NCBI GenBank assembly: GCA_020724415.1
Contig: DYHB01000019.1
Span: forward strand, 1 to 33,441
From: Thiobacillus sp.
GTDB taxonomy: Bacteria; Pseudomonadota; Gammaproteobacteria; Burkholderiales; Thiobacillaceae
Direction of reading: 5' to 3'
DNA length: 33,441 nucleotides
Shown here: piece by piece, positions 3,430 to 18,600 of the stretch
Layout: every line of letters starts with the position of its first letter
How positions within the stretch are numbered: position 1 is the first letter of the stretch
Made by a program: the position numbers and the translations under genes
Notes under the pieces: model-generated
Told to the model about the DNA's origin: nothing
Database searches by the model: none
What the model saw: only the letters and a program-made list of their open reading frames with translations

Positions 3430-3446
3430 CCCTGACCGGATCAGGG
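3430..3446. terminator. Candidate bidirectional hairpin between convergent genes
   Basis: CCCTGA (3430-3435) and TCAGGG (3441-3446) form a 6-bp stem with a 5-base loop exactly between the zwf stop and the convergent stop at 3441. The position suits a shared terminator, but no T-run follows on either strand. Confidence 0.35.
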
Positions 3447-3932
3447 GGCGCCGGTTTGCCCCGGGTTGGCCAGCTGGCCAAAGCCCAGGTAGCGGGCTTC
3501 GAAACGGGCCTTGCCCCGGGCGAGAAACTGCTCAAAATCCCAGTCGTCCGGGGCCAGAAGATGCTGAAACTCGGGCCGGAAGACGTAGGTCCAGGCAGGG
3601 ATCATCCCGCCCCCCGCCTGGCTGACCCGCACCTGCTTGCGCAGGTACATGTCGCCCTCGAAGGCATCCAGCCTGGGCCAGGCCGTGGCAGGCAGTCCCC
3701 GGTAGAGCACCCCCGTCACCCGCCCGTCCGGCGCCGGCACGATGCCGGGGTAATCCTCGCCCCGCACCGGTGCCCGGCGGTAGTCCGTCAGGCATGCCGT
3801 CTCGCCTGCCAGCCCATGGGCCTCACCGATGCCGCAGACCCGGGCCATGATGTCCGGGCACATCAGGGAGCCATAGGCGAAGCAGGCCGCAACCTCCGGT
3901 TCGGCAACGCTGTCAGGGGGAGACGGAATCAT
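3441..3932 (-). CDS. Gamma-glutamylcyclotransferase-like (AIG2/GGACT fold) protein
   Basis: This is a 163-residue protein of the gamma-glutamylcyclotransferase superfamily, whose members cyclise gamma-glutamyl groups of small peptides or amines to 5-oxoproline. The hallmark YGSL sits at residues 20-23 (FAYGSLMCPD), and the likely catalytic glutamate is Glu92 in DAFEGDMY, the usual distance from YGSL. The true substrate cannot be read from the sequence. I chose ATG 3932 because the conserved fold starts about 17 residues later; the frame extends further upstream, but that part is antisense-like, low-complexity sequence inside the neighbour. The gene overlaps the 3' end of the GGDEF-EAL gene by 20 bp, so it is probably the last gene of that operon. 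No functional link to c-di-GMP signalling is known to me. Confidence 0.85.
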   Translation of the reverse strand: MIPSPPDSVAEPEVAACFAYGSLMCPDIMARVCGIGEAHGLAGETACLTDYRRAPVRGEDYPGIVPAPDGRVTGVLYRGLPATAWPRLDAFEGDMYLRKQVRVSQAGGGMIPAWTYVFRPEFQHLLAPDDWDFEQFLARGKARFEARYLGFGQLANPGQTGAP

Positions 3933-6270
3933 GGAAGGCCTCGGGCATGTGGATGGCGTAGCCTTGAGCATAATCCACACCCATGGCTTCCAGCATCTGG
4001 GCGATCTCGGGGGTATGGACGAACTCGGCAATGGTCTTCATGCCATGGACCCGGGCCACCTCCATGATGGACTTCACCACCGCCTGGTCGCGCACGTCCT
4101 GGTCCAGGTTGCGCACGAACAGGGCGTCGATCTTGAGGTAATCGGCTTCCAGGCGACGCAGGTAGGCGAAGGAGGACAGGCCGGCGCCAAAGTCGTCCAG
4201 GGCGACGCTGCACCCCAGTCGATGCATGGCCTGGATGAAGTCCTGGGCTTTTTCCATGCTGGCCACGGCGGCCGTCTCCGTGATCTCGAAGCACACGCGT
4301 CGTGGCTCGACACCATGACGCTGGATGCACTGGGTGACATAGTCAGTCAGGTCATCCGAAGACAGGGTGTTGCCCGACAGGTTGACCGCATAGGTGGTGG
4401 CGGTATGGTGTTCCGGACCCAGCCGGCCCAGCAGGGCGCAGGCATGATCGATCACCCACTGGTCGATGGTGGTCATCAGGTTGAAGCGTTCGGCTGCAGG
4501 GATGAAGCGCGCCGGGGACAGGACCTCGCCCCGCTCGTCCCGCATGCGCACCAGGATCTCGGCGTGGTCAGGCAAATCCGGGTGCAGGGGCTTGACCCGT
4601 TGCACGTAGAGCAGCAGGCGGTTTTCCCTCAGCCCCCGGGTGATCTCGCTGGCAGACAGGAACTGGGCCCGCTGGGAGCGGTAGTAGTCGTCTTCAGGGG
4701 CGAACACCTCCACCCGGTTGCGGCCCTTGTCCTTGGCGGCATAGCAGGCCTGGTCCGCGGCGATCAGGAGCTCGTCGATGCCCATGTGGGTCTGGCGCAT
4801 CTCCACCACGCCTACCGAGGCACCCAACTGGAAGTACTGGCCTTCGTAGACGAAGGTGTGGGAATGGATGGCATCGATGAGCTTTTCCGACTGGCGGATG
4901 GCGCATTCCAGGTCGCAATCCAGCAGCAGGCCGAACTCGTCCCCGCCCAGGCGGGCCAGATAGCCATGGTTGGCGGTGCGCTGCATGATGACCGTGATTT
5001 CCCGCAGCAGGCGGTCCCCCGCCGAATGGCCGCAGGTGTCGTTGACCAGCTTGAACTGGTCCAGGTCGATGTACAGCAGGGTGCGGGGCTCGCTGGCCGG
5101 GCCCTGGCTGTCCAGGACCGACTGGACATACTGCTCGAAGGCGCGCCGGTTATACAGGCCGGTCAGGGTATCGTGGCTAGCCTGGTAGGCCAGCTCCTCC
5201 TTGGCGTAGTGTTCCAGGGAGATATCCCGGATGCTGGAGCGATAGCCCAGGGATTGGCCCTGGTCGTCAAAGATGGGCTGCCAGGACATGGCGACCCAGA
5301 TGGTGCGGCCATCCTTGCGCCGGATGCGGAACTCCTGGTCCTGGCCGGTCTGGCCCGACAGGCCCCGGCGATGGCAGCGGCTGACCAGGTCCAGGTCGTC
5401 GCCAAACACGATGGGAAGGGGAAAGTCTGCCATGGCATGGCATTCCTCGGGGGCATAGCCGCTCACCCGTTCCACGGCCGGGTTGACCCAGTTCAAGTGG
5501 CCATCGGGGGCAAACCAGTTTTCCCAGCCGTAGGTGAAATCGGCGATGGCGCGGGAGCGCTCTTCATTCCGGGACAAGGCATTGATGCGCTCCTGCACGG
5601 CGTCGGCCATGAGATTGAAGTGACCGGCCAGGCGGGCGATCTCGTCGTCCGAATCCACCTTCAGGCGGGTGGCGTAATCGCCCTGGGCGATGCGTCCGCT
5701 GGCCGCCATCAGGGAGGACAGATGCCGGGTCAGCCAGTAGCCGATCACGGACAGAAGCACGATGGTGAGGGTGATCTCCGCCAGGGCGATCAGGCTGCCC
5801 TGGGTGACCACTTCGCGTTTCGCCGTCTGGATGGCCTCGGTGGACAGGCCATACTGGACATGGCCGTAGACTTGGTCCAGATAATCCACCGCAAAGCGCA
5901 CATGGGTGACCGGGGCACCCCCGGAGTCCGGGCCGGAGGGGGGCAGGGCCTGGCCCGACGCCAGTCCCGAGGCGGCCAGGACGCGTCCGTTGGTATCGGT
6001 CACCACCAGGTAGAGGATGTCCTCAGCCTTGCGCCAGCCGTCCAGGATGTCGCGCAGGGTGGCATAGTCCCGGGAGGCCAGGGGGGGCGCGACCGCAGTC
6101 TTGTAGGCCAGCTCCACCGACTCGATGCCGCTCTGGGTGAGGCGCTCCATGTGGGTCTGGGTCAGGCGCATGCTGTTGCCCACCAGCAGGGCCAGCATGA
6201 TCACCTCCACCAGTATGCTGGCCAGCAGGAGCTTGCCGCGCAGGGAGAGGTGACGAGGATGCTGGAACAT
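3913..6270 (-). CDS. Membrane HAMP-PAS-GGDEF-EAL cyclic-di-GMP protein
   Basis: This 785-residue inner-membrane protein makes and/or breaks cyclic-di-GMP. Order of domains: TM helix at about 13-33, periplasmic sensor region to about 158, second TM at about 160-181, HAMP at 182-235, PAS with PAC at about 245-355, GGDEF at 365-525 and EAL at 545-780. The GGDEF motif is intact (442-446, LGGDEFG). The inhibitory I-site RxxD that usually precedes it is absent (Ala and Gly align there). The EAL motif reads EIL (571-573), but the other catalytic-site positions are kept: Asn630, Glu662, DDFG 692-695, Lys713, Glu749 and Gln769 in QGY. Both activities are therefore plausible. It starts 30 bp after the PhnD-like binding-protein gene, which suggests that protein presents a ligand to the periplasmic domain. 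Direction of net activity is inference. Confidence 0.95.
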   Translation of the reverse strand: MFQHPRHLSLRGKLLLASILVEVIMLALLVGNSMRLTQTHMERLTQSGIESVELAYKTAVAPPLASRDYATLRDILDGWRKAEDILYLVVTDTNGRVLAASGLASGQALPPSGPDSGGAPVTHVRFAVDYLDQVYGHVQYGLSTEAIQTAKREVVTQGSLIALAEITLTIVLLSVIGYWLTRHLSSLMAASGRIAQGDYATRLKVDSDDEIARLAGHFNLMADAVQERINALSRNEERSRAIADFTYGWENWFAPDGHLNWVNPAVERVSGYAPEECHAMADFPLPIVFGDDLDLVSRCHRRGLSGQTGQDQEFRIRRKDGRTIWVAMSWQPIFDDQGQSLGYRSSIRDISLEHYAKEELAYQASHDTLTGLYNRRAFEQYVQSVLDSQGPASEPRTLLYIDLDQFKLVNDTCGHSAGDRLLREITVIMQRTANHGYLARLGGDEFGLLLDCDLECAIRQSEKLIDAIHSHTFVYEGQYFQLGASVGVVEMRQTHMGIDELLIAADQACYAAKDKGRNRVEVFAPEDDYYRSQRAQFLSASEITRGLRENRLLLYVQRVKPLHPDLPDHAEILVRMRDERGEVLSPARFIPAAERFNLMTTIDQWVIDHACALLGRLGPEHHTATTYAVNLSGNTLSSDDLTDYVTQCIQRHGVEPRRVCFEITETAAVASMEKAQDFIQAMHRLGCSVALDDFGAGLSSFAYLRRLEADYLKIDALFVRNLDQDVRDQAVVKSIMEVARVHGMKTIAEFVHTPEIAQMLEAMGVDYAQGYAIHMPEAFHDSVSP

Positions 6271-6300
6271 GGGGGCCGACGCGTTGCTATGGAGGCGGGG

Positions 6301-7137
6301 CTACAACCCCATCATTTCCCGCACGATGGGCGTGTAGGGGGCGAGGGCGCGCAGGTCGGCAGGGCTGATGGGGTCATAACCAAGGTAGCCGGTGTCCTTG
6401 AAGAACACCGTGCCTTCGGCCGTGTTCGGGAAGGCCGCCAGGGCTCGCCGGATGCGTTCGATCTCGGGTTTCCCGAGCCGCTGATGGGCCAGGGTCATCA
6501 GGTGGGGCACGCTGACATCGGTGGTCAACAGGGTCACGGCCGCCCGGACATCCGGGGGAATCTGCTTCAGGGGCGTGTGGGTGGTCAGGGCGGCATCCAG
6601 GTCGCCCACCGCCACGCCCGCAATGGCGGCACCATGGGTGGTGCGTTCATGGACCGTGAAATCCTGTCCGGTGCGCAGGCCATGCTTGTTCAGCCACATC
6701 AGGCCCACGATGGAGGACACCGACAGCCGGTTGGAGAGGCCGATCCGCTTGCCGCGCAGGTCGTCATGATGGCGGATGCCCGAATCCTTGCCCACGACGA
6801 ACAGGGGCGTCAGCCGCGTCTTGTAATGAAAGAGGGGCTCCCAGCCCTGCTCCAGGCACATGGCGCCGAAATGGGGTCCGGTGATCAACAGATCATACTC
6901 CCCGGCCAGGGAGGCTCTCTGGAAACGGTCATAATTGGGGCTGGTGTAGATTTCCACAGGCCTGTCCAGGGCCTTCTGCAAATGCTGGCGCAAGGGCTGG
7001 TGGGTCTTGATCAGCGCCAGGGTGCTGTTGAACGGCATGATGCCCAGGCGCAGGGGCGCGGCCTCATCCCCGTGGGCTGCGGAGGAAAACCATAGGAGTG
7101 ACAGGGTCAGAAAAAAATACCGGAACAGGGTGAGCAC
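6301..7137 (-). CDS. PhnD-like periplasmic substrate-binding protein
   Basis: This is a 278-residue exported protein of the PhnD/PBP2 family (phosphate/phosphite/phosphonate-type binding proteins). The start is GTG 7137: AAGGAG lies 7 bases upstream, and the product begins with a clean signal peptide (hydrophobic FFLTLSLLWF, cleavage probably after AHG). A more upstream GTG at 7155 would place the ribosome-binding site inside the gene. Mature-region motifs are LRLGIMPFNS, the ligand-site loop DLLITGPHFGA and the hinge DLRGKRIGLSNRLSVSS. No ABC permease or ATPase gene is nearby. Instead a GGDEF-EAL protein follows 30 bp downstream, so it more likely senses than transports. The ligand is unknown; PhnD-like proteins beside signalling proteins need not bind phosphonates. 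Confidence 0.87.
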   Translation of the reverse strand: MLTLFRYFFLTLSLLWFSSAAHGDEAAPLRLGIMPFNSTLALIKTHQPLRQHLQKALDRPVEIYTSPNYDRFQRASLAGEYDLLITGPHFGAMCLEQGWEPLFHYKTRLTPLFVVGKDSGIRHHDDLRGKRIGLSNRLSVSSIVGLMWLNKHGLRTGQDFTVHERTTHGAAIAGVAVGDLDAALTTHTPLKQIPPDVRAAVTLLTTDVSVPHLMTLAHQRLGKPEIERIRRALAAFPNTAEGTVFFKDTGYLGYDPISPADLRALAPYTPIVREMMGL

Positions 7138-7272
7138 GATCGTTCTCCTTGCCACCTTGGCAGATTGGATGGTTGTTCATGCCGTCTGACGACAGCATCG
7201 CACGGGACTGTGATCAACACTTAACGGACGAACCCACGAATACTTTAGGGGATTGTGACAGGTTTCACATGT

Positions 7273-7530
7273 CAGTCCCGAACGGCCGCTCCGGAGGGAC
7301 TGACACCCCCCTCGGGGGGCAGCGAGCATGGCGAGCGAGGGGGCAGTGGGCCTCAGTCCCGAACGGCCGCTCCGGAGGGACTGACACCCCCCTCGGGGGG
7401 CAGCGAGCATGGCGAGCGAGGGGGCAGTGGGCCTCAGTCCCGAACGGCCGCTCCGGAGGGACTGACACCCCCCTTGGGGGGGCAGCGAGCATGGCGAGCG
7501 AGGGGGCCTCAGTTCCGACACCCCACTGGG
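7273..7530. repeat. Three 81-bp tandem repeats plus a partial fourth
   Basis: Near-identical units start at 7273, 7354 and 7435 (period 81), and a degenerate partial copy follows from about 7510. Each unit contains CAGTCCC and GGGACTG bracketing a 16-base interior, a C6/G6 hairpin (CCCCCCTCGGGGGG), and the phrase GCGAGCATGGCGAGCGAGG. The third unit differs by small indels. The array fills most of the 415-bp space between the PhnD-like gene and the hypothetical gene, both on the minus strand, and could act as a transcription barrier or a binding array. Short chance frames run through it, but the same triplication in every frame argues against coding. The remainder of the gap (7138-7272) should hold the promoter of the PhnD-like gene; I see no strong consensus there. 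Confidence 0.93.
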
Positions 7531-7552: not shown

Positions 7553-8668
7553 TCAGTGGGTGTTGCGGGGACTGGCCGGGCCGGTGGCGGCCATGCCCTC
7601 CATGAATTCCTTGGCCGTGTCGGCCTTGAAGGATTCGGATAGTTTCTGGGCATTGCGCAACAGGGACTTGGCGAACAGGTCGCCGCCCGCGAGCTTGAGG
7701 CCGTCCCGGTCGGTGGTGTCGGCAAAGTCCGGGTAGAACATGCGTCGCCGCCGGTCCGGGTCGAACCACCAGGCATTCTTGGCGGCGTATTCATAACCGA
7801 AGGGCAGCACGGCGGCCGAGAATTCCGGTCCATCGGGATAGCCTTCGGAGCGCTCGCCCTTGCGCCCGATAAAACCGGCCTGGGCCAGTTTTTCGACGAA
7901 TCGGGTCATTTCCCGCAGATGGAGGTGCGCCACGTAAAGGTAGTGGCTGCGGCGCAGGGTCAGGGCCGCCACGCCTTCTTCGTCCACCTCCCGGGTCGGC
8001 ATTTCCGAGGCCGGCGTGCCCAAGGCGTTGACGTGGTGCATGACCAGGCCCACCGGATGGGTCAGCATGGCGGGATTGCGGCCCTCCAGGTAATTCACCA
8101 CGCTGTAGGTCAGCCTGAGGTAAGCGCTTACGCCCGTCTTCAGGCCGGCATCGGATTCCAGGCGCTTGTGCAGCTCGTACAGGTCCAGCAGCCGGTCCGC
8201 CGGCATGGGCAGCACCAGGGTGAGCAGATGCCCGTCTGGAAAGTCGCCACCCACCGCGTCATCCTCCCGGTGGGGAAAGACCCGCACGTTGTAGACCGGC
8301 TCCAGACGTTCGGTCAGCTTGCCCATCCAGGACCCGGGGTGGATGTTCTGGACGCTCTGGCCCAGCTCGGCAAATTTCTCGGCCGTGATGAGGGTCACCA
8401 TCTCGTCCCCGTCGTATGCCAGTTCCAGGGATGACAGATGGCCGGCGAACCGGTAGCGGGCCAGGTGGCCGTCCGGGTCACGCCATTCGGCCACCCAGCC
8501 CTTTTTCTGGAGCTTGAAGGATTCCCGCACCAGATCGCCGAGCAGAAAGCGGTCGGGAAGGTCGTCGGCGGATTTCACTTCGGCCGGGGTGGCCACCGGC
8601 ACGTGGACGGGGCGCTCGATGGTGGGCAGGGCGAGGAGTTTGGGGAAGACGGGGGCGGTATCGGCCAT
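7553..8668 (-). CDS. Hypothetical protein, 371 residues
   Basis: I do not recognise this protein. It has no signal peptide or membrane segment and reads as a soluble cytoplasmic protein rich in charged and aromatic residues. Notable features are the FKLQKKGWVAEWRDPDGHLARYRF stretch near residues 50-73 (strand-rich), a central helical region around 155-200, a run of histidines and tyrosines (MHHVNALG; RSHYLYVAHLHLREM) near 210-255, and an Arg-rich segment FDPDRRRRMFYPDF near 305-320. Coding is supported by uninterrupted length, normal codon usage and divergent placement against the ABC exporter. The ATG at 8668 has only a poor ribosome-binding site. It may share control with the exporter, because their starts are 188 bp apart. 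No function is proposed. Confidence 0.8.
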   Translation of the reverse strand: MADTAPVFPKLLALPTIERPVHVPVATPAEVKSADDLPDRFLLGDLVRESFKLQKKGWVAEWRDPDGHLARYRFAGHLSSLELAYDGDEMVTLITAEKFAELGQSVQNIHPGSWMGKLTERLEPVYNVRVFPHREDDAVGGDFPDGHLLTLVLPMPADRLLDLYELHKRLESDAGLKTGVSAYLRLTYSVVNYLEGRNPAMLTHPVGLVMHHVNALGTPASEMPTREVDEEGVAALTLRRSHYLYVAHLHLREMTRFVEKLAQAGFIGRKGERSEGYPDGPEFSAAVLPFGYEYAAKNAWWFDPDRRRRMFYPDFADTTDRDGLKLAGGDLFAKSLLRNAQKLSESFKADTAKEFMEGMAATGPASPRNTH

Positions 8669-8856: not shown

Positions 8857-9576
<720 letters not shown>

Positions 9577-9577
9577 C

Positions 9578-11944
9578 ATGGGCGCCCTGCACCTGAAACT
9601 GATCCGGGACCTGTGGCAGATGCGGGGACAGGTGCTGGCCATTGCCGCCGTCATCGTGGGTGGGGTGGCCACCCTGGTGATGTCCCTGTCCACCTACGAC
9701 TCCCTGCTGGAAACCCGGGACCGGTTTTATCAGCAGTATCGGTTCGCCCATGTCTTCGTCCATCTGAAGCGGGCACCGGAGCCGGTCGCAGAGCGCATTG
9801 CCGGCCTGCCCGGCGTTGCCACGGTCCAGGTCGGCGTCCTGGCGGTGGTGAAACTGGAAGTGGCGGGCTTCCAGGACCCGGTGACCGGATTGCTTTCCTC
9901 CCTGCCGGATACCGGCCCGCCGGTACTCAATGGCCTGCATCTGAAGCAGGGCCGCTGGCTGCAGCCCTACAGCGGGGATGAGGTGCTGGTGGCCGATACC
10001 TTCGCCGATGCCCATGGCCTGCGGCCTGGCGACCGGCTGGCGGCCATCATCAACGGCAAGCGCAAGCCCCTGACCATCGTGGGCGTGGCCCTGTCGCCGG
10101 AATATGTCTATCAGATCGCACCGGGCGCCATGTTCCCGGATTTCGAACGCTACGGGGTGCTCTGGATGGGACGGGATGCCCTGGCCGCAGCCTATGACAT
10201 GGCGGGCGCCTTCAACAGCCTGACCCTGGAGCTGGCGCGGGGGGGCCGGGAGAAGGAGGTGATCGTCCAGGTGGACCGACTGTTGGCGGCCTATGGGGGT
10301 GTCGGCGCCCACGGTCGGGCCGACCAGCTCTCCAACCGTTTCCTGGCCGAGGAGTTCAAGCAGCTCAAGACCACGGCCACGGTATTCCCGGCCATCTTCC
10401 TGGGCGTGGCCGCCTTTCTGCTGAACGTGGTGATTTCCAGGCTGATCGCCACCCAGCGGGAACAGATCGCCATACTGAAGGCCTTCGGCTACGGCAACCT
10501 GGCCATTGGCGGCCACTATGTGGGCATGGTCCTGGTCATCACCCTCATCGGCGTGGCGGGAGGCGTGGCCCTGGGCCTCTGGTTCGGCCACGGCCTGGCC
10601 AACGTGTACATGGATTTCTACCGCTTTCCCAGCCTTGAATACGTGCTGGATCCCCGGGTGGTACTGGTGGCCCTGGCCGTCTCCTGCCTGGCCTCCGTGT
10701 CCGGCACCCTGTTCGCCGTGGGCCGGGCCACCCGCCTGCCGGCCGCCGAGGGTATGCGCCCGGAAACCCCGATGGCCTACCGGGCCACCGTGCTGGAACG
10801 GATGGGGCTGCAGCGCTGGCTGAGGCAGCCCAGCCGGATGATCCTGCGCCACATCGAACGCCGGCCGGTGAAATCCCTCCTCACCGTCCTGGGCATTGCC
10901 TGCGCCGGCGGCCTGATGATGGTGGGCAACTACCAGCGCGGCGCCATCGACTTCATGGTGGACCTGCAATTCCGCCATGCCGCCCGGGAGGACCTGATGG
11001 TGGCCTTCGTGGAGCCCACCGGGTCCCGGGCCCTGCACGAACTGGCCAGCCTGCCCGGGGTGCGTCGGGTGGAAGGATTCCGGGACGTGCTGGTGATCCT
11101 GCGCCATGGCCATCGTGAATATCGTCATGCCCTGTTCGGCATCCAGCCCGACAGCGTGCTGCACCGGGTCCTGGACCGCCGCATGGAACCCGTGCAGGTA
11201 CCGCCCGATGGCGTCATCCTGACTGACCACCTGGCCGAGAAGATCCTCCGGGTCCGTCCCGGGGACCGGCTGACGGTGGAGGTGCTGGAAGGTCATCGAC
11301 CCGTGCGGGAGGTGCCCGTGCTGGGCATCACCCGGCAATACCTGGGCGTGTCGGCCTACATGTCCCGGGATGCCCTGAACGCCCTGTTGCGGGAAGGTGA
11401 CGTGGTCTCGGGCGCCTACCTCTCCCACGACCAGGACAGCCAGCAGGCCCTCTATGACCAGCTCCATGCCCGGCCCCGGATATTGGGCATGGTGGCCAAT
11501 GCCTCGGCAGTACGCAGCTTCTACGCCACCATGGGCGAGTTCGTCCTGTTCTTCAACATGGTGGCCACCCTGCTGGCCGGCAGCATCGCCTTTGGCGTGG
11601 TCTACAACAGCGCCCGCATCGCCCTGTCCGAACGCAGCCGGGAACTGGCCAGCCTGCGGGTACTGGGCTTCAGCCATGGCGAGATCGCCTACATCCTGCT
11701 GGGCGAACTGGCGGTCCTGACCCTGGCCGCCATCCCGCTGGGCTTCCTGGTGGGTACCGGCCTGTGCGGCCTGCTGGTGCTGGTGTTCGAGTCGGACCTC
11801 TATCGCCTGCCCCTGGTGATCGAACCCTACAACTACGCCCTGGGCGCCACCGTGGTCGCCTTGTCCGCCCTGGTCTCCGGGCTGCTGGTCTGGTACCGGC
11901 TGGGCCACCTGGACCTGGTGGGCGCCCTGAAAATGCGGGAATGA
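9578..11944 (+). CDS. ABC exporter permease with duplicated FtsX domains
   Basis: This 788-residue inner-membrane permease has an N-terminal helix (about residues 14-36), a large periplasmic region, then a first FtsX block of three helices (about 265-390, containing ATVFPAIFLGVAAFLLN and REQIAILKAFGYG). A second copy follows: one helix near 430-450 (SLLTVLGIACAGGLMMVG), a second periplasmic domain, and a final three-helix block (about 645-780, containing SERSRELASLRVLGFS). The double layout resembles the LolC/E-related, 8-helix permeases rather than 4-helix MacB. The paired coupling-helix motifs (REQIAILKAFGY and RELASLRVLGF) should contact the ATPase encoded 1 bp upstream. With the downstream HlyD-type adaptor it likely exports a substrate from the membrane or periplasm; nothing shows which. 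Confidence 0.93.
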   Translation: MGALHLKLIRDLWQMRGQVLAIAAVIVGGVATLVMSLSTYDSLLETRDRFYQQYRFAHVFVHLKRAPEPVAERIAGLPGVATVQVGVLAVVKLEVAGFQDPVTGLLSSLPDTGPPVLNGLHLKQGRWLQPYSGDEVLVADTFADAHGLRPGDRLAAIINGKRKPLTIVGVALSPEYVYQIAPGAMFPDFERYGVLWMGRDALAAAYDMAGAFNSLTLELARGGREKEVIVQVDRLLAAYGGVGAHGRADQLSNRFLAEEFKQLKTTATVFPAIFLGVAAFLLNVVISRLIATQREQIAILKAFGYGNLAIGGHYVGMVLVITLIGVAGGVALGLWFGHGLANVYMDFYRFPSLEYVLDPRVVLVALAVSCLASVSGTLFAVGRATRLPAAEGMRPETPMAYRATVLERMGLQRWLRQPSRMILRHIERRPVKSLLTVLGIACAGGLMMVGNYQRGAIDFMVDLQFRHAAREDLMVAFVEPTGSRALHELASLPGVRRVEGFRDVLVILRHGHREYRHALFGIQPDSVLHRVLDRRMEPVQVPPDGVILTDHLAEKILRVRPGDRLTVEVLEGHRPVREVPVLGITRQYLGVSAYMSRDALNALLREGDVVSGAYLSHDQDSQQALYDQLHARPRILGMVANASAVRSFYATMGEFVLFFNMVATLLAGSIAFGVVYNSARIALSERSRELASLRVLGFSHGEIAYILLGELAVLTLAAIPLGFLVGTGLCGLLVLVFESDLYRLPLVIEPYNYALGATVVALSALVSGLLVWYRLGHLDLVGALKMRE

Positions 11945-11951
11945 ACGCTGT

Positions 11952-11973
11952 GGGGCCGGCTTCAACCGGCCAG
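11952..11973. repeat. REP-like palindrome, copy 1
   Basis: GGCCGG (11954-11959) and CCGGCC (11966-11971) form a hairpin with loop CTTCAA, preceded by TGGG. The element lies 9 bp after the permease stop. The same TGTGGGGCCGGCTTC-type sequence recurs at 30555-30576 and in reverse at 30631-30656. It resembles the GTGGGAGCGGCTTCAGCC-type REP palindromes known from other proteobacteria. Confidence 0.7.
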
Positions 11974-11993
11974 GTGCCCAGGCAGGAGTAGCC

Positions 11994-12071
11994 ATGACGA
12001 CCGAGCGCTTCACCGCCAGGAAGGCATGGAAACGAAGCCATGGATATGCGTTGGCATCTATTTTGAAATGA
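11994..12071 (+). CDS. Possible 25-residue small ORF
   Basis: ATG 11994 is preceded by AGGAG with 5 bases between, a better ribosome-binding site than most genes here. It reads 25 codons to TGA at 12069-12071. The peptide is basic (RFTARKAWKRSHGYAL) and matches nothing I know. It lies in the 224-bp gap between the permease and adaptor genes and could be a leader peptide or chance. The rest of the gap holds an 11-bp direct repeat just before the adaptor gene. Confidence 0.2.
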   Translation: MTTERFTARKAWKRSHGYALASILK

Positions 12072-12132
12072 ACAATGGTGTGGTGCGGGCTGGGCCACGA
12101 AGGCATAGACCGGCACTGCCCCAACCGCGAAG

Positions 12133-12156
12133 CGAGAACCGACACCGAGAACCGAC
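12133..12156. repeat. 11-bp direct repeat before the adaptor gene
   Basis: CGAGAACCGAC occurs at 12133-12143 and 12146-12156, offset 13 bp, ending 12 bp before the adaptor ATG. It flanks the ribosome-binding site (AGGATG) and could be a binding site or simple sequence slippage. Confidence 0.5.
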
Positions 12157-12168
12157 TAGGATGAAACC

Positions 12169-13368
12169 ATGACACGCGGACGCATCCCACTGATCCTCCT
12201 CGCCCTGGCCCTGGCAGCCGCCCTGGCCTACGGCTTCATGCCCAGAGCAGTGCCGGTGGACACCGTGGCGGTGTCCCGGGGTGACTTGGCCGTGACCCTG
12301 GAGGAAGAAGGCAAGACCCGGGTCCGGGAACGCTACCGGGTATCCGCCCCGGTGTCCGGCTATGTCCGGCGCATCGACCTGAAAGCGGGTGACCCGGTCC
12401 AGGCCGGCCAGGCCCTGGCGGTCCTGGAACCCTCCCGTTCGGATGCCCTGGACCCACGCAGCCGGGCCCAGGCCCAGGCCCGGATCAGCGCCGCCCAGGC
12501 CGCTCTCCGGGGCGCCCGGGAGCAGGCCGCGGCTGCCACTGCCGGCGCCGACCTGGCAGCCCAGGAACTGGCCCGGGCCCAGGCCCTGAGCGATCGGGAG
12601 TTCGTGTCCCGGGCCACGGTGGACCAGGCCCGGACCGCCCAGGAGCGGGCTCAGGCTGCCCGCAATGCCGCCGAGCAGGCCGTCAACGTGGCTCGATACG
12701 ACCTGGAAGCCGCCCGTGCCCTGCTCCATCGAGCAGGCGCCGGCACCGCGTCCGATCCCACTGCAAGGGTGACCGTGACCGCCCCCGTGACCGGCCGGGT
12801 GCTGGCAATCCATCACGAGAGCGAGGGTGCCGTGCCGGCCGGCCAGCCCCTGCTGGACGTAGGCAATCCCGACTCCCTGGAAGTGGTGGTGGATGTCCTC
12901 TCCACCGGGGCGGTGAAGCTGGCCCCGGGCACTAGGATCCACCTGGACCGCTGGGGCGGCGAAGGCCGTCTGGAAGGCCGGGTACGGGTGGTGGAACCGG
13001 CCGGGTTTACCAAGATATCCGCCCTGGGCGTCGAAGAGCAGCGGGTCCGGGTCATCGTCGACATCGTCTCGCCCCAAGCCGACTGGGCCCGGCTGGGCGA
13101 CGGCTACCGGGTAGAGGCCGCCTTCGTGATATGGGAGGGTCGCGATGTCCTGATCGCCCCCACCAGCGCCCTGTTTAGGCACGGCGAAGGCTGGGCGGTG
13201 TTCGTGGTCGACGACGGCCGGGCCCGGCTCACGCCGGTCCGGGTGGGTCAGCGCAACGGCCTCCAGTTCCAGGCGCTGGAAGGCCTGGCAGAAGGCCAGA
13301 CCGTCATCACCCACCCGGACGACAAGGTGGGCGAGGGGATCAAGGTCAGGTCCCGGTCAGGTGCCTGA
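12169..13368 (+). CDS. HlyD-family periplasmic adaptor of the ABC exporter
   Basis: This 399-residue membrane-fusion protein has one N-terminal hydrophobic segment (residues 7-22, IPLILLALALAAALAYGF), so it is anchored in the inner membrane with the bulk in the periplasm. It has a first lipoyl half (RVSAPVSGYVRRIDLKAGD), a long Ala/Gln/Arg-rich alpha-helical hairpin (about residues 95-185), the second lipoyl half (VTAPVTGRVLAIHHESEG), then beta-barrel and membrane-proximal domains. It should bridge the FtsX-type permease to an outer-membrane factor, which is not encoded in the window. The start follows an AGGA element. A 224-bp gap from the permease gene is long for an operon and leaves room for its own promoter. 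It converges on the SDR gene 11 bp downstream. Confidence 0.92.
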   Translation: MTRGRIPLILLALALAAALAYGFMPRAVPVDTVAVSRGDLAVTLEEEGKTRVRERYRVSAPVSGYVRRIDLKAGDPVQAGQALAVLEPSRSDALDPRSRAQAQARISAAQAALRGAREQAAAATAGADLAAQELARAQALSDREFVSRATVDQARTAQERAQAARNAAEQAVNVARYDLEAARALLHRAGAGTASDPTARVTVTAPVTGRVLAIHHESEGAVPAGQPLLDVGNPDSLEVVVDVLSTGAVKLAPGTRIHLDRWGGEGRLEGRVRVVEPAGFTKISALGVEEQRVRVIVDIVSPQADWARLGDGYRVEAAFVIWEGRDVLIAPTSALFRHGEGWAVFVVDDGRARLTPVRVGQRNGLQFQALEGLAEGQTVITHPDDKVGEGIKVRSRSGA

Positions 13369-14858: not shown

Positions 14859-15659
14859 TCAGGCCAGGGCGAAGTCGGCAGGCAACGGACGCCGGGCGGG
14901 GTAGCGGAAGGCTACCGGGCCCTGGGGCAGGGCATGGATGAACTGGTCCACGAAGGGGTCCCGGGAGGCCTGGATTTCGGCCACCGGGCCGCCGGCCACC
15001 ACCTTGCCGCCGTCGATGAAATAGGCGTAGTCGGCAATCTTGAGGGATTCCGAGACATCGTAGGTGACCACGATGGAGGTGGTCTGGAGGGCGTCGTTGA
15101 GACGCCGGATCAGGTTGGCGATGACGTTGAGGGAGATGGGGTCCAGGCCGGAGAAGGGTTCGTCATAGACCGCCAGCAGGGGGTCCAGGACGATGGCCCG
15201 GGCCAGGGCCACCCGCCGGGCCATGCCGCCGGAGAGCTCGCCCGGCATCAGTCCGTGGGCGCCTCGCAGGCCCACGGCGTGGAGTTTCATGAGCACCAGG
15301 TCGCGGATCATGTCTTCCGGCAGGTCGGTGTGCTCCCGCAGGGGGAAGGCCAGGTTCTCGTACACGCTCAGGTCGGTGAACAGGCCGCTTTCCTGGAACA
15401 TGCGGCCGATTTCCCGGCGCAGGCGGTACAGCTCGGTGTTGTTGAGCTCGTGCACCACCCGGCCATCCAGGCGGACATGACCGGCCGCAGGGCGGGCCTG
15501 GCCGCCGATGAGGCGGAGCAGGGTGGTCTTGCCGCAGCCGCTGGCACCCAGGATGGCGGTCACCTTGCCCCGGGGGATGTCCAGGTGGATGCCGTCCAGC
15601 ACCACCCGTTCGCCATAGGCGAATTTCAGGTCACGGATTTCGATCAGGGTGTCGGTCAT
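14859..15659 (-). CDS. mlaF: MlaF-type ABC ATPase with Tyr at the H-loop
   Basis: This 266-residue ATPase of the MlaF family normally drives phospholipid transport between membranes together with MlaE, MlaD and MlaB. It has Walker A GASGCGKTT (38-46), Q-loop FQESGLF (89-94), signature LSGGM (142-146) and Walker B LAVYDEP (162-168). The C-terminal tail (QGPVAFRYPA) is the MlaF-specific extension that in E. coli binds MlaB. The H-loop histidine is replaced by Tyr200 (VVTYDVSESL); whether that is normal for this clade I cannot verify. I chose ATG 15659 because AGGAG lies 7 bases upstream; the frame extends 11 codons further. The ATG overlaps the RND stop by 4 bp. No mlaE, mlaD or mlaB is next to it. 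Confidence 0.88.
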   Translation of the reverse strand: MTDTLIEIRDLKFAYGERVVLDGIHLDIPRGKVTAILGASGCGKTTLLRLIGGQARPAAGHVRLDGRVVHELNNTELYRLRREIGRMFQESGLFTDLSVYENLAFPLREHTDLPEDMIRDLVLMKLHAVGLRGAHGLMPGELSGGMARRVALARAIVLDPLLAVYDEPFSGLDPISLNVIANLIRRLNDALQTTSIVVTYDVSESLKIADYAYFIDGGKVVAGGPVAEIQASRDPFVDQFIHALPQGPVAFRYPARRPLPADFALA

Positions 15660-18600
15660 GACGGGGCTCCTGCAAACAGGCGGGGGAACCATCCCTCCAG
15701 CCTGGCGTGGATTGTCTCATACACGGACAGCATGGCCGGCAGCCAGAGCAGGGCCACGAAGGTGGTGACCGCCAGGCCGAAGGAGATGGAGGTGGCCATG
15801 GGGATCAGGAACTGGGCCTGGAGGGAGGTTTCCATCATCAGGGGCGCCAGGCCGCCGATGGTGGTGAGGGAGGTGAGCAGGATGGCGCGCAGACGCTGGC
15901 AGGCGGCCTCCACCACGGCAGCATCCGGGGCCAGCCCCTCCTTGCGCAGGCGCTTGTAGAAGGTGACCAGGACGATGGAGTCGTTCACCACGATGCCCGA
16001 CAGGCCGAACAGGCCGAACATGGACAGCACGGTGAGGTCGATGCCCATCAGCCAGTGGCCCAGGATGGCGCCCACCAGGCCGAAGGGGATGGACAGCATG
16101 ATGATGATGGGCCAGCCGTAGTGGGCAAAGACCCAGGACAGGATGAGGAAGATGAGGACCAGGCCCATGACCAGGCCGGTCTTCATGTCGGCCATGGTTT
16201 CCCGCTGGTCGGCGGCCCGGCCTTCGAAGCTGTATTGGACGCCATGGCGCTCCAGGATGGGCGGCAGGGTGTTGTCGGTGAGGCCGGCCAGGATGTCGTT
16301 GGTGTTGGCCTGGCCCGCGGCCACGGCGGCGGTCACTTCCACCGCCAGTTGGGTGTCGGCGTGGCGCAGGGCCTCGAAGCCCTGACGGGTGCTCCAGGAG
16401 GCCACCGTGGCCAGGGGGACCCAGAGGCCGCCGGGTGTCCGGACGTTGAGCCGGCCCAGGGCGGCCAGGCTGGAGCGTTCGTCCTTGGGCAGGCGGACCC
16501 GGACTTCCACCTCGTCGGGGCCGTCCTGGAAGATCTGCACCAGGCGGCCGTCGAAGGCGGACCGCAACTGGCGCGACAGGTCGTCGATGGTCAGGCCCAG
16601 GGATTCCCCCTGGGGGGTCAGGCGGAAGATCATCTGCTCCCGGCCATAGGGCATGTCGTCCTCGATGCCATAGATGCCGTTGATCTGGCGCAGGGCGGTC
16701 TGCAGTTCCAGGGCGGCCAGCTTGAGGGCATGCTCGTCGGTGCCCGTGAAGCGGACCTGGATGTCGCTGCCCGGGGGGCCGCCCCGGCGTTCGGTGAGGA
16801 CGAAGTTCTCCATGCCGGGCGGCCGGATCACCCGTGCCTGCCAGGCCTGGACGAATTCCTCGGTGCGGGTTTCCCGTCCGTCGGAGGGAGTCAGCTGAAC
16901 CGTGACGGCGCCGAACTGGTCCCCCGTGCGGGCCTGGCCACCATCGCCGGCAATGCCGCCCCGGCGGCTCACGGCATGCTGGACCACGTCCTCGCCCAGG
17001 GCCTGCTCGGTTTCGGCCAGGGTGGTTTCCAGGTGGTGCACGAAGCGTTCCACCTGGTCGGCCGGGGTGCCCGCCACGAAAGTGGCATTGGCATAGACGA
17101 TCTGGCCTTCCGGGGTGGGGAAGAAGGTGAATTTCACCCGGCCGCCGGCCAGCAGGCCCACGGCCAGGATCAGGACCGCGATGCCGGCCGTGATGGTGAC
17201 GCCGCGCCAGGCCACGGCCCGGGTCACGAAGGGCCGGAAGACGTGGTCCCGGAAGCGGTCGAAGCCGTCTTCCAGGCGCTGGCGCAAGCCCCGGGTGGTG
17301 GCGGCCGGATCATGGACGAAGGCGTTGCGCAGGTGGGCCGGCAGGATCAGGAAGCACTCGATGATGGATGCCGCCAGGACACAGATCATGACGAAGGGGA
17401 TGTCGAACATGATGTTGCCGATGGGGCCGGACACCAGCATGAGGGGAATGAAGGCGGATACCGTGGTCAGGCTGGAGGCCATGACCGGCCAGAACATGCG
17501 TTTGGCGCCCCCTTCCGAGGCGCGCAGGGGGGCTTCCCCCATGCGGTGGTGGGCGTAGGCGTCCTCGCCTACCACGATGGCGTCGTCCACGATGACCCCC
17601 AGGGCCATGATCAGGGCGAACAGGCTGATCATGTTGATGGTGCCGCCCATCAGCCAGAGGACTGCCAAGGTGGCCATGAAGGCGGTGGGGATGCCCATGG
17701 CCACCCAGAAGGCCACCCGGCCGTTGAGGAACAGGTAGAGAATGGTGACCACGATCAGCAGGCCACCCAGGCCGTTCTTCACCAGCAGGCTGATGCGGTC
17801 CTCGATCAGGCTCCATTGCTCGTCGTAGACCTGGATCTCGATGCCCTGGGGCAAGGTGGGCCGGGTGTCGTCCAGCCAGGCCTGGAACAGCTTGGCGGCC
17901 TTGAGGGAATGACCGTCCTCGGCCCGCTTCAGGAGCAGTTCCACCGCCGGCTGCCCGTCCACGTACAGGTACAGGCTGCCGTCCCGGGCCTGGCGCTGGA
18001 TCTCGGCCACCTGGGCCAGTTCGATCCGGGCGCCGCCCTCGGTGACCAGGGGCAGGGTGCGGAAGTCCCGGGGGTCCCGGCGCTGTTCGATGGCCCGGAT
18101 CTCGCGCTGGATCTCGCCTTCACCCACCATGCCGGCGGGGGCGTCCTGGCTGACGGCGGCAATCCTGGTGGCAGCCTGGTCCAGGGTCAGGTCCAGGCGT
18201 TCCAGTTCCCGGCCCGGGATGTCGATGGCGATCTCGTCCTGGGGCAGGCCCACCAGATCCACCTTGTCGATGCCCCGGATCACCAGTTCCTGTTCGAAAC
18301 GCCTGGCCAGGTGGCGCAATTCGTCCAGGCTGGCGCCGGTGACCAGCATTTTGGCAATGGGCTCGTAGCGGGTGACGCGGGTGACCTCGGGGGTTTCGGC
18401 ATCCTTGGGCAGGTTGCGGAATTCGGCCACCTGCTGTTTCACCTCGTCCACCGCCACGATGGGGTTGGTGCCTTCCTTGAATTCCAGGGAGATGGAGGCG
18501 ATGCCCTGGCTGGAGGTGGAGGTGATCTTGTCCAGGTTGGCGACCGATTTCAGGCGTTGTTCCAGGGGTGCGCTGATGCCGTCCTCCACATCCTCGGCCG

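Follow-up and report, generated by a model that had tools for sequence, protein, structure and literature searches.

A PhnD-fold binding protein gene paired with the gene of a membrane GGDEF-EAL receptor in Thiobacillus: a probable bipartite sensor

The closest described relative of the system discussed here is that of Xanthomonas citri, in which the genes XAC2383 and XAC2382 are reportedly adjacent; the XAC2383 protein is said to have been shown to contact a Cache domain, phosphate-type ligands are said to be preferred, and a published title (2018, JBC 293:10767) names XAC2383 as receptor/cyclase partner. Pairs like XAC2383-XAC2382, with various outputs, are said to be present in other phyla. 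We analyzed a 33,441-nucleotide stretch of DNA from Thiobacillus sp. (contig DYHB01000019.1 of assembly GCA_020724415.1, positions 1 to 33,441; "the window" below), in which the gene of a PhnD-fold binding protein directly precedes that of a membrane receptor with HAMP, PAS, GGDEF and EAL domains. It is probable that these two genes encode one bipartite sensor, in which the PhnD-fold protein docks on the Cache domain of the receptor.

Two other kinds of system are useful for comparison. NspS of Vibrio cholerae is said to be a PotD-like polyamine-binding protein and not a member of family PF12974, to which the window binding protein belongs; NspS-MbaA is a functional analogue of the window pair with another binding-protein family. 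It is described as a bifunctional polyamine receptor whose ligand sets cyclic di-GMP (c-di-GMP) synthesis or degradation (PMC8967002). In AioX-AioS, and also with ArxX and ArrX, a PhnD-fold protein serves a membrane receptor and not a transporter (PMC5908839); AioS is a histidine kinase, whereas the window receptor is a GGDEF-EAL protein, and the arsenite-linking Cys106 of AioX has no conserved counterpart in the window binding protein. That 2018 paper describes orthologues of AioX as the sole members of their family with a signalling role (PMC5908839), and a 2022 review states that, of the PBP-clan domains in GGDEF/EAL proteins, SBP_bac_3 alone had been investigated in the context of c-di-GMP networks (PMC8846402).

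The gene pair and its conservation

All features of the pair lie on the minus strand. The binding-protein gene (6301–7137) encodes 278 amino acids (AAs) from a GTG at 7137 to a stop at 6301; the longest version of the reading frame begins at GTG 7155 (284 AAs), and GTG 7137, with a Shine-Dalgarno-like AAGGAG (7145–7150) 7 bases upstream of it, is the better start. The protein carries the signal peptide MLTLFRYFFLTLSLLWFSSAAHG (judged by eye and by models) and matches PF12974 (Phosphonate-bd) in Pfam with E 1.1e-37. The receptor gene (3913–6270) encodes 785 AAs with the order TM-Cache-TM-HAMP-PAS-GGDEF-EAL, as read from Pfam and a model, the transmembrane (TM) segments having been assigned by eye and from models; its ATG at 6270 follows the binding-protein stop at 6301, on the same strand, after a gap of 30 bp. 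A preliminary description of this locus, made from the sequence alone, had already given these coordinates, with the start at 7137, the spacing and a PhnD-family protein with a signal peptide, all of which agree with our analysis. The periplasmic region of about 125 residues that it noted in the receptor corresponds to residues ~34–158 (5797–6171), for which a single Cache/PDC-type fold is predicted (model m9d278c0ebbc7).

The model of receptor residues 1–230 (predicted local distance difference test, pLDDT, 76.7) has a long TM helix, the single Cache/PDC-type domain and HAMP (residues 176–226, 5593–5745; PF00672). Among solved structures it resembles WalK, DctB and chemoreceptor Cache domains with Z of ~8–13, and WalK 4ywz matches the periplasmic domain with Z 10.2 and a root-mean-square deviation (rmsd) of 3.0 over 122 aligned residues. 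No Pfam Cache family matched the window receptor itself in the Pfam scan, and sCache_3_2 is above its cut-off in one receptor homologue (L051). The Cache domain is the likely docking site for the binding protein.

Within the family, strong matches to the binding protein are always paired. With cut-offs of E<=1e-30 for the binding protein and E<=1e-10 for receptor residues 1–230, binding-protein matches were found at 102 places in 83 of 117 family genomes (two of the places are in this genome), and in all 102 a receptor N-terminus is encoded next downstream on the same strand, 19–174 bp away. A pattern-based scan of 84,980 species-level genomes found 23 loci with identities of 47–70%, every one of them paired, at least four of which also belong to the family set. 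In a phylum sample of 299 genomes searched with profiles at least 26 of 82 binding-protein matches are paired, in 24 genomes of which 22 are outside the family; the paired count is a lower bound, because scoring in this sample was limited to 8 or 9 candidates from each genome. Since the family matches are paired in 102 of 102 cases the pairing goes beyond chance, and the conserved gene order that the preliminary description had put forward as a check is present in both the family and the species-level sets. In 87 of 121 non-duplicate loci the two reading frames share 4 bases (starts chosen by script). No flanking gene that might serve as a clue to the ligand recurs in more than six (all close relatives) of the 26 loci examined, and our literature searches listed no paper on this particular clade.

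In many cases, CitA and DctB among them, small ligands are bound by a Cache domain without a helper protein, and the receptor's periplasmic domain, a Cache/PDC fold according to its model, has weak sequence matches to CitA and structural matches to DctB. The receptor might accordingly bind the signal directly, while the PhnD-like protein delivers, sequesters or competes for the ligand without docking. A plain ligand buffer, however, need not adjoin the receptor in 102 of 102 cases, nor need its divergence match that of the receptor's sensor half so much more closely than that of the enzyme half (see below), and we regard this arrangement as unlikely.

Parallel divergence and differing outputs

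Our collection holds 121 non-duplicate pairs, including the window pair and a second pair of this genome on contig C121 (L052, L053, L054 and L055 were counted as duplicates of L029, L031, L030 and L032, respectively, their contigs being of equal length). Their receptors have GGDEF-EAL outputs in 107 cases (three cut by contig ends), HATPase-REC in seven and HATPase alone in one, and the remaining six are cut or truncated; the output classes were assigned by profiles made from Pfam-placed segments, and representatives were confirmed by Pfam. A class of 40 "GGDEF only" receptors, obtained with a regular expression, was rejected: Pfam finds an EAL domain in the one that was scanned (L058), and the profiles corrected the count. 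The binding proteins of the eight kinase-type pairs are 47–58% identical to that of the window, and 89 of the 107 GGDEF-EAL pairs have binding proteins that are <45% identical to it and thus farther away than those of the kinase-type pairs.

Six of the 121 pairs were left out before trees were made (L044, L080, L105, L111, L139 and L147, because of a misplaced start or a short receptor), and 103 of the other 115 were kept for comparison of distances, no GGDEF segment having been found in the rest; alignments A3 and A4, cut at 72% identity, contain 57 of the 115 loci. Measured on trees, binding-protein distances follow those of the first 225 receptor residues with r 0.910 (n=103 pairs), as against r 0.595 (n=103) for the GGDEF domain of the same receptor polypeptide, a contrast that is informative because one gene encodes both the GGDEF domain and the sensor half. 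The partial r of binding protein and sensor half given GGDEF is 0.872, with none of 500 permutations reaching the observed value, and the periplasmic part alone gives r 0.89. The binding protein and the sensor half look like one input cartridge, since the former tracks the latter much more closely than it does the GGDEF domain, while outputs change. We suggest more tentatively, as a possibility toward which we do not quite lean, that this two-gene cartridge has been re-plugged repeatedly onto GGDEF-EAL enzymes and histidine kinases, with the class of ligand changing between clades.

Several observations weigh against interpreting the pair as one docking sensor. In the phylum sample 56 of the 82 binding-protein matches have no sensor match beside them (one of these, on contig C40 of this genome, adjoins a hybrid kinase), and in the family 48 of 150 receptor-sensor matches have no binding-protein match at the cut-off. 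The binding protein also follows HAMP with r 0.844, and among the 86 pairs of <45% identity the value for HAMP (0.911) is the same as for the periplasmic part (0.910), so the co-divergence singles out the whole sensor half and not the periplasmic domain. Parallel trees can moreover arise from neighbourhood or shared history alone and are no proof of contact. Finally, the assembly (259 contigs) is 94% complete, which leaves room for a missing permease.

Transport, ligand pocket and enzyme half

That incompleteness would suit a binding protein that is part of a transporter, with a permease and an ATPase encoded in DNA missing from the assembly and a receptor that is simply co-transcribed, as would the closest PDB sequence match of the binding protein, the phosphite transport protein PtxB (1.9e-20). 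The preliminary description had named such partners elsewhere in the genome as a finding that would refute it; in this assembly there is no match to the PhnE permease at E<=1e-3, and none of the 54 matches to the PhnC ATPase is over the cut-off. In addition, the binding protein scores 45 bits against the 261-bit cut-off of the PhnD equivalog TIGR03431, and 83 of the 117 family genomes retain the pair, so we consider a transport role very improbable. The earlier statement that the pair has no ABC (ATP-binding cassette) transporter genes is correct for the immediate neighbourhood but not farther off, where an ABC ATPase, an FtsX-type permease and a HlyD protein are encoded at 8857–13368 on the strand opposite to the pair, and a second ABC ATPase at 14862–15692. 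Both ATPases match PhnC only under its cut-off, and the FtsX and HlyD domains point to export.

The AlphaFold2 model of the binding protein (pLDDT 90.5) matches PtxB (Z ~27), PhnD, ArrX, XAC2383 (Z 24.7) and AioX (Z ~23; 23.5 for the arsenite-bound form). Its residues Y75, S145, S147 and H174 occupy the places of Y47, S127, S129 and H157 of E. coli PhnD, which we take to be ligand contacts. Y75 and H174 are kept in all 24 close relatives, S145 in 22 and S147 in 21. At four other positions the pocket departs from PhnD, T92, V146, T194 and M220 standing in the alignment where PhnD has Y93, T128, E177 and D205, so that a ligand is not assured, and the binding protein might regulate the receptor by contact without any ligand, or upon envelope stress. 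Against this stands the near-complete retention of the former four residues in the clade, and we give the idea very little weight. Among 57 diverse members F replaces Y75 in 42 and A replaces S145 in 41, and H95 is invariant. By its pocket the window clade continues to resemble a binder of oxyanions or phosphonate-type ligands, whereas the binding proteins outside it, most of which have F and A in place of Y75 and S145, probably bind something else. AioX-like arsenite sensing was considered and rejected, as the binding protein has no conserved Cys; its only one, C100, is Cys in just 10 of the 24 relatives.

The enzyme half of the receptor is made up of PAS (residues 255–351, 5218–5508; PF08447 and PF13426), GGDEF (residues 364–519, 4714–5181; PF00990, with the motif at 442) and EAL (residues 542–776, 3943–4647; PF00563). 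The closest solved relative of the catalytic part is PA0861/RbdA of Pseudomonas aeruginosa (E 5e-109), whose PAS-GGDEF-EAL catalytic part is like that of the window receptor. RbdA is described as mainly a phosphodiesterase that is stimulated by GTP, and it has an inhibitory site (I-site) (PMC10874727), whereas in the window receptor this site is absent, the RxxD position reading ANHG. RxxD is present in only five of the 104 receptors with a locatable GGDEF motif; RxxE is kept in many that do not have it (for example RRNE, the commonest string, in 71), and the near GGDEF-EAL relatives of the window receptor likewise have no acid at the fourth RxxD place. All nine EAL catalytic positions (E571, N630, E662, E665, D692, D693, K713, E749 and Q769) are present, and each is conserved in 105–107 of 107 aligned EAL domains; by sequence the metal, substrate and catalytic residues expected of active EAL phosphodiesterases are intact. 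The motif itself reads EIL (E571), the 107 domains having EAL in 85 cases, EVL in 10, EIL in 8 and ELL in 4 (counted on the alignment, since a regular expression caught look-alikes inside GGDEF). At the final EGVE position, of uncertain role, the window receptor has H752, and E is missing in 19 of the 105 receptors with a residue at this place. Both traits, the EIL-type motif and the loss of the I-site, have an active precedent, because P. aeruginosa PA0285, with an ESL motif and no I-site, is a phosphodiesterase (PMC10874727). The preliminary description thus read EIL and the missing I-site correctly, but the unusual feedback control that it deduced from them finds little support in view of the nine catalytic positions and PA0285.

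We envisage that in the periplasm the PhnD-fold protein monitors a small ligand, in this clade probably an anion of the phosphite, phosphonate or phosphate type, and would change shape upon binding it. It would then dock on the receptor's single Cache domain, which may shift TM2 and HAMP and, via PAS, reset the balance of the RbdA-like GGDEF-EAL pair. The resting receptor would probably be mainly a phosphodiesterase with GTP at GGDEF, and bifunctional switching is also possible. Control of c-di-GMP turnover through ligand sensing and contact, as proposed in the preliminary description, remains the best reading now that the pair has proved to be conserved; the contact, the ligand and the direction of the switch are the parts of it that we infer.

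Neighbouring genes, related loci and known systems

Just upstream of the binding-protein gene (window 7272–7507) lies a tandem array of a GC-rich 81-bp unit in 2.9 copies with 98% matches; five more single copies of this unit, diverged, are present on other contigs of the assembly. Upstream of the pair there is also a 371-residue reading frame (7553–8668, minus strand) with no Pfam match at E 0.001. At the other end, a gene for a GGACT protein (gamma-glutamyl cyclotransferase-like, AIG2; 3441–3932, minus strand; PF06094, 5.9e-19) has its likely ATG at 3932 and so overlaps the 3' end of the receptor gene; we saw no sign that it is part of the sensor system.

This genome has 12 PF12974 matches, the window pair included, and 11 of them either form part of a fusion with a signalling protein or stand in line with one. 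In the second pair, on contig C121, the binding protein is 31% identical to that of the window and the receptor is HAMP-PAS-PAS-GGDEF-EAL. A PhnD-like binding protein directly precedes a HAMP-HisKA-HATPase-REC-Hpt hybrid kinase on contig C40 (L014:4788-8270), and contig C3 (L016:948-9484) has four such proteins, one after another, ahead of a HAMP kinase. On contigs C12, C155, C198 and C255 (L017–L020) PhnD-type domains are fused to PAS-GGDEF(-EAL), one of them also with a CZB domain (contig ends interrupt two of these fusion proteins, those of C12 and C155). The one remaining match, at the end of contig C209, is next to MalQ. As 11 of the 12 matches are tied to signalling proteins and there is no PhnE match, sensing would in this lineage have taken over the PF12974 family from transport, as part of the tentative re-plugging of input cartridges suggested above.

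Genes similar to the C3 binding proteins (profile of the four) occur in seven of the 117 family genomes. At L152–L158 and in this genome they form rows of seven (G031), six and five (both in G032, on two contigs), five (G015) and four (G039 and this genome), the rows of five in G032 and G015 both running to contig ends; G027 and G028 have single copies. The order is a REC-PAS-PAS-HD response regulator, an outer-membrane efflux-type (OEP) protein, the binding proteins and a HAMP histidine kinase, as scanned with Pfam at four loci for the response regulator, three for the efflux-type protein and five for the kinase. None of the 397 other genomes of a phylum draw has a C3-type match at E<=1e-25 among the candidates scored, which numbered no more than 5 for each genome, and a literature search listed nothing on rows of PhnD-like genes beside one kinase. 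Several binding proteins reporting to one kinase would be an extreme form of the cartridge arrangement, and such rows of four to seven PhnD-like genes beside one histidine kinase are less expected than the pair.

What many GGDEF/EAL proteins respond to is not known, and a conserved, self-contained pair whose binding protein is soluble brings the signal within reach of a ligand screen; natural differences in output allow the same input to be read by a kinase or by a c-di-GMP reporter. The closest known system to the window pair is XAC2383-XAC2382 of X. citri. XAC2383 (5ub3) shares the fold of the window binding protein (Z 24.7, rmsd 2.8, 251 aligned, 18% identity) and is matched by the binding-protein family profile at 2.4e-13, but it is distant in sequence, a single-sequence search giving no match to it even at E 10. 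XAC2382 is titled a diguanylate cyclase, whereas the window receptor is a HAMP-PAS-GGDEF-EAL protein with an intact EAL domain. The design of the window pair has thus already been described in X. citri, and what is added here is its strong conservation in the lineage, the contrast between the input and output halves of the receptor, and the two-class pattern of the ligand pocket.

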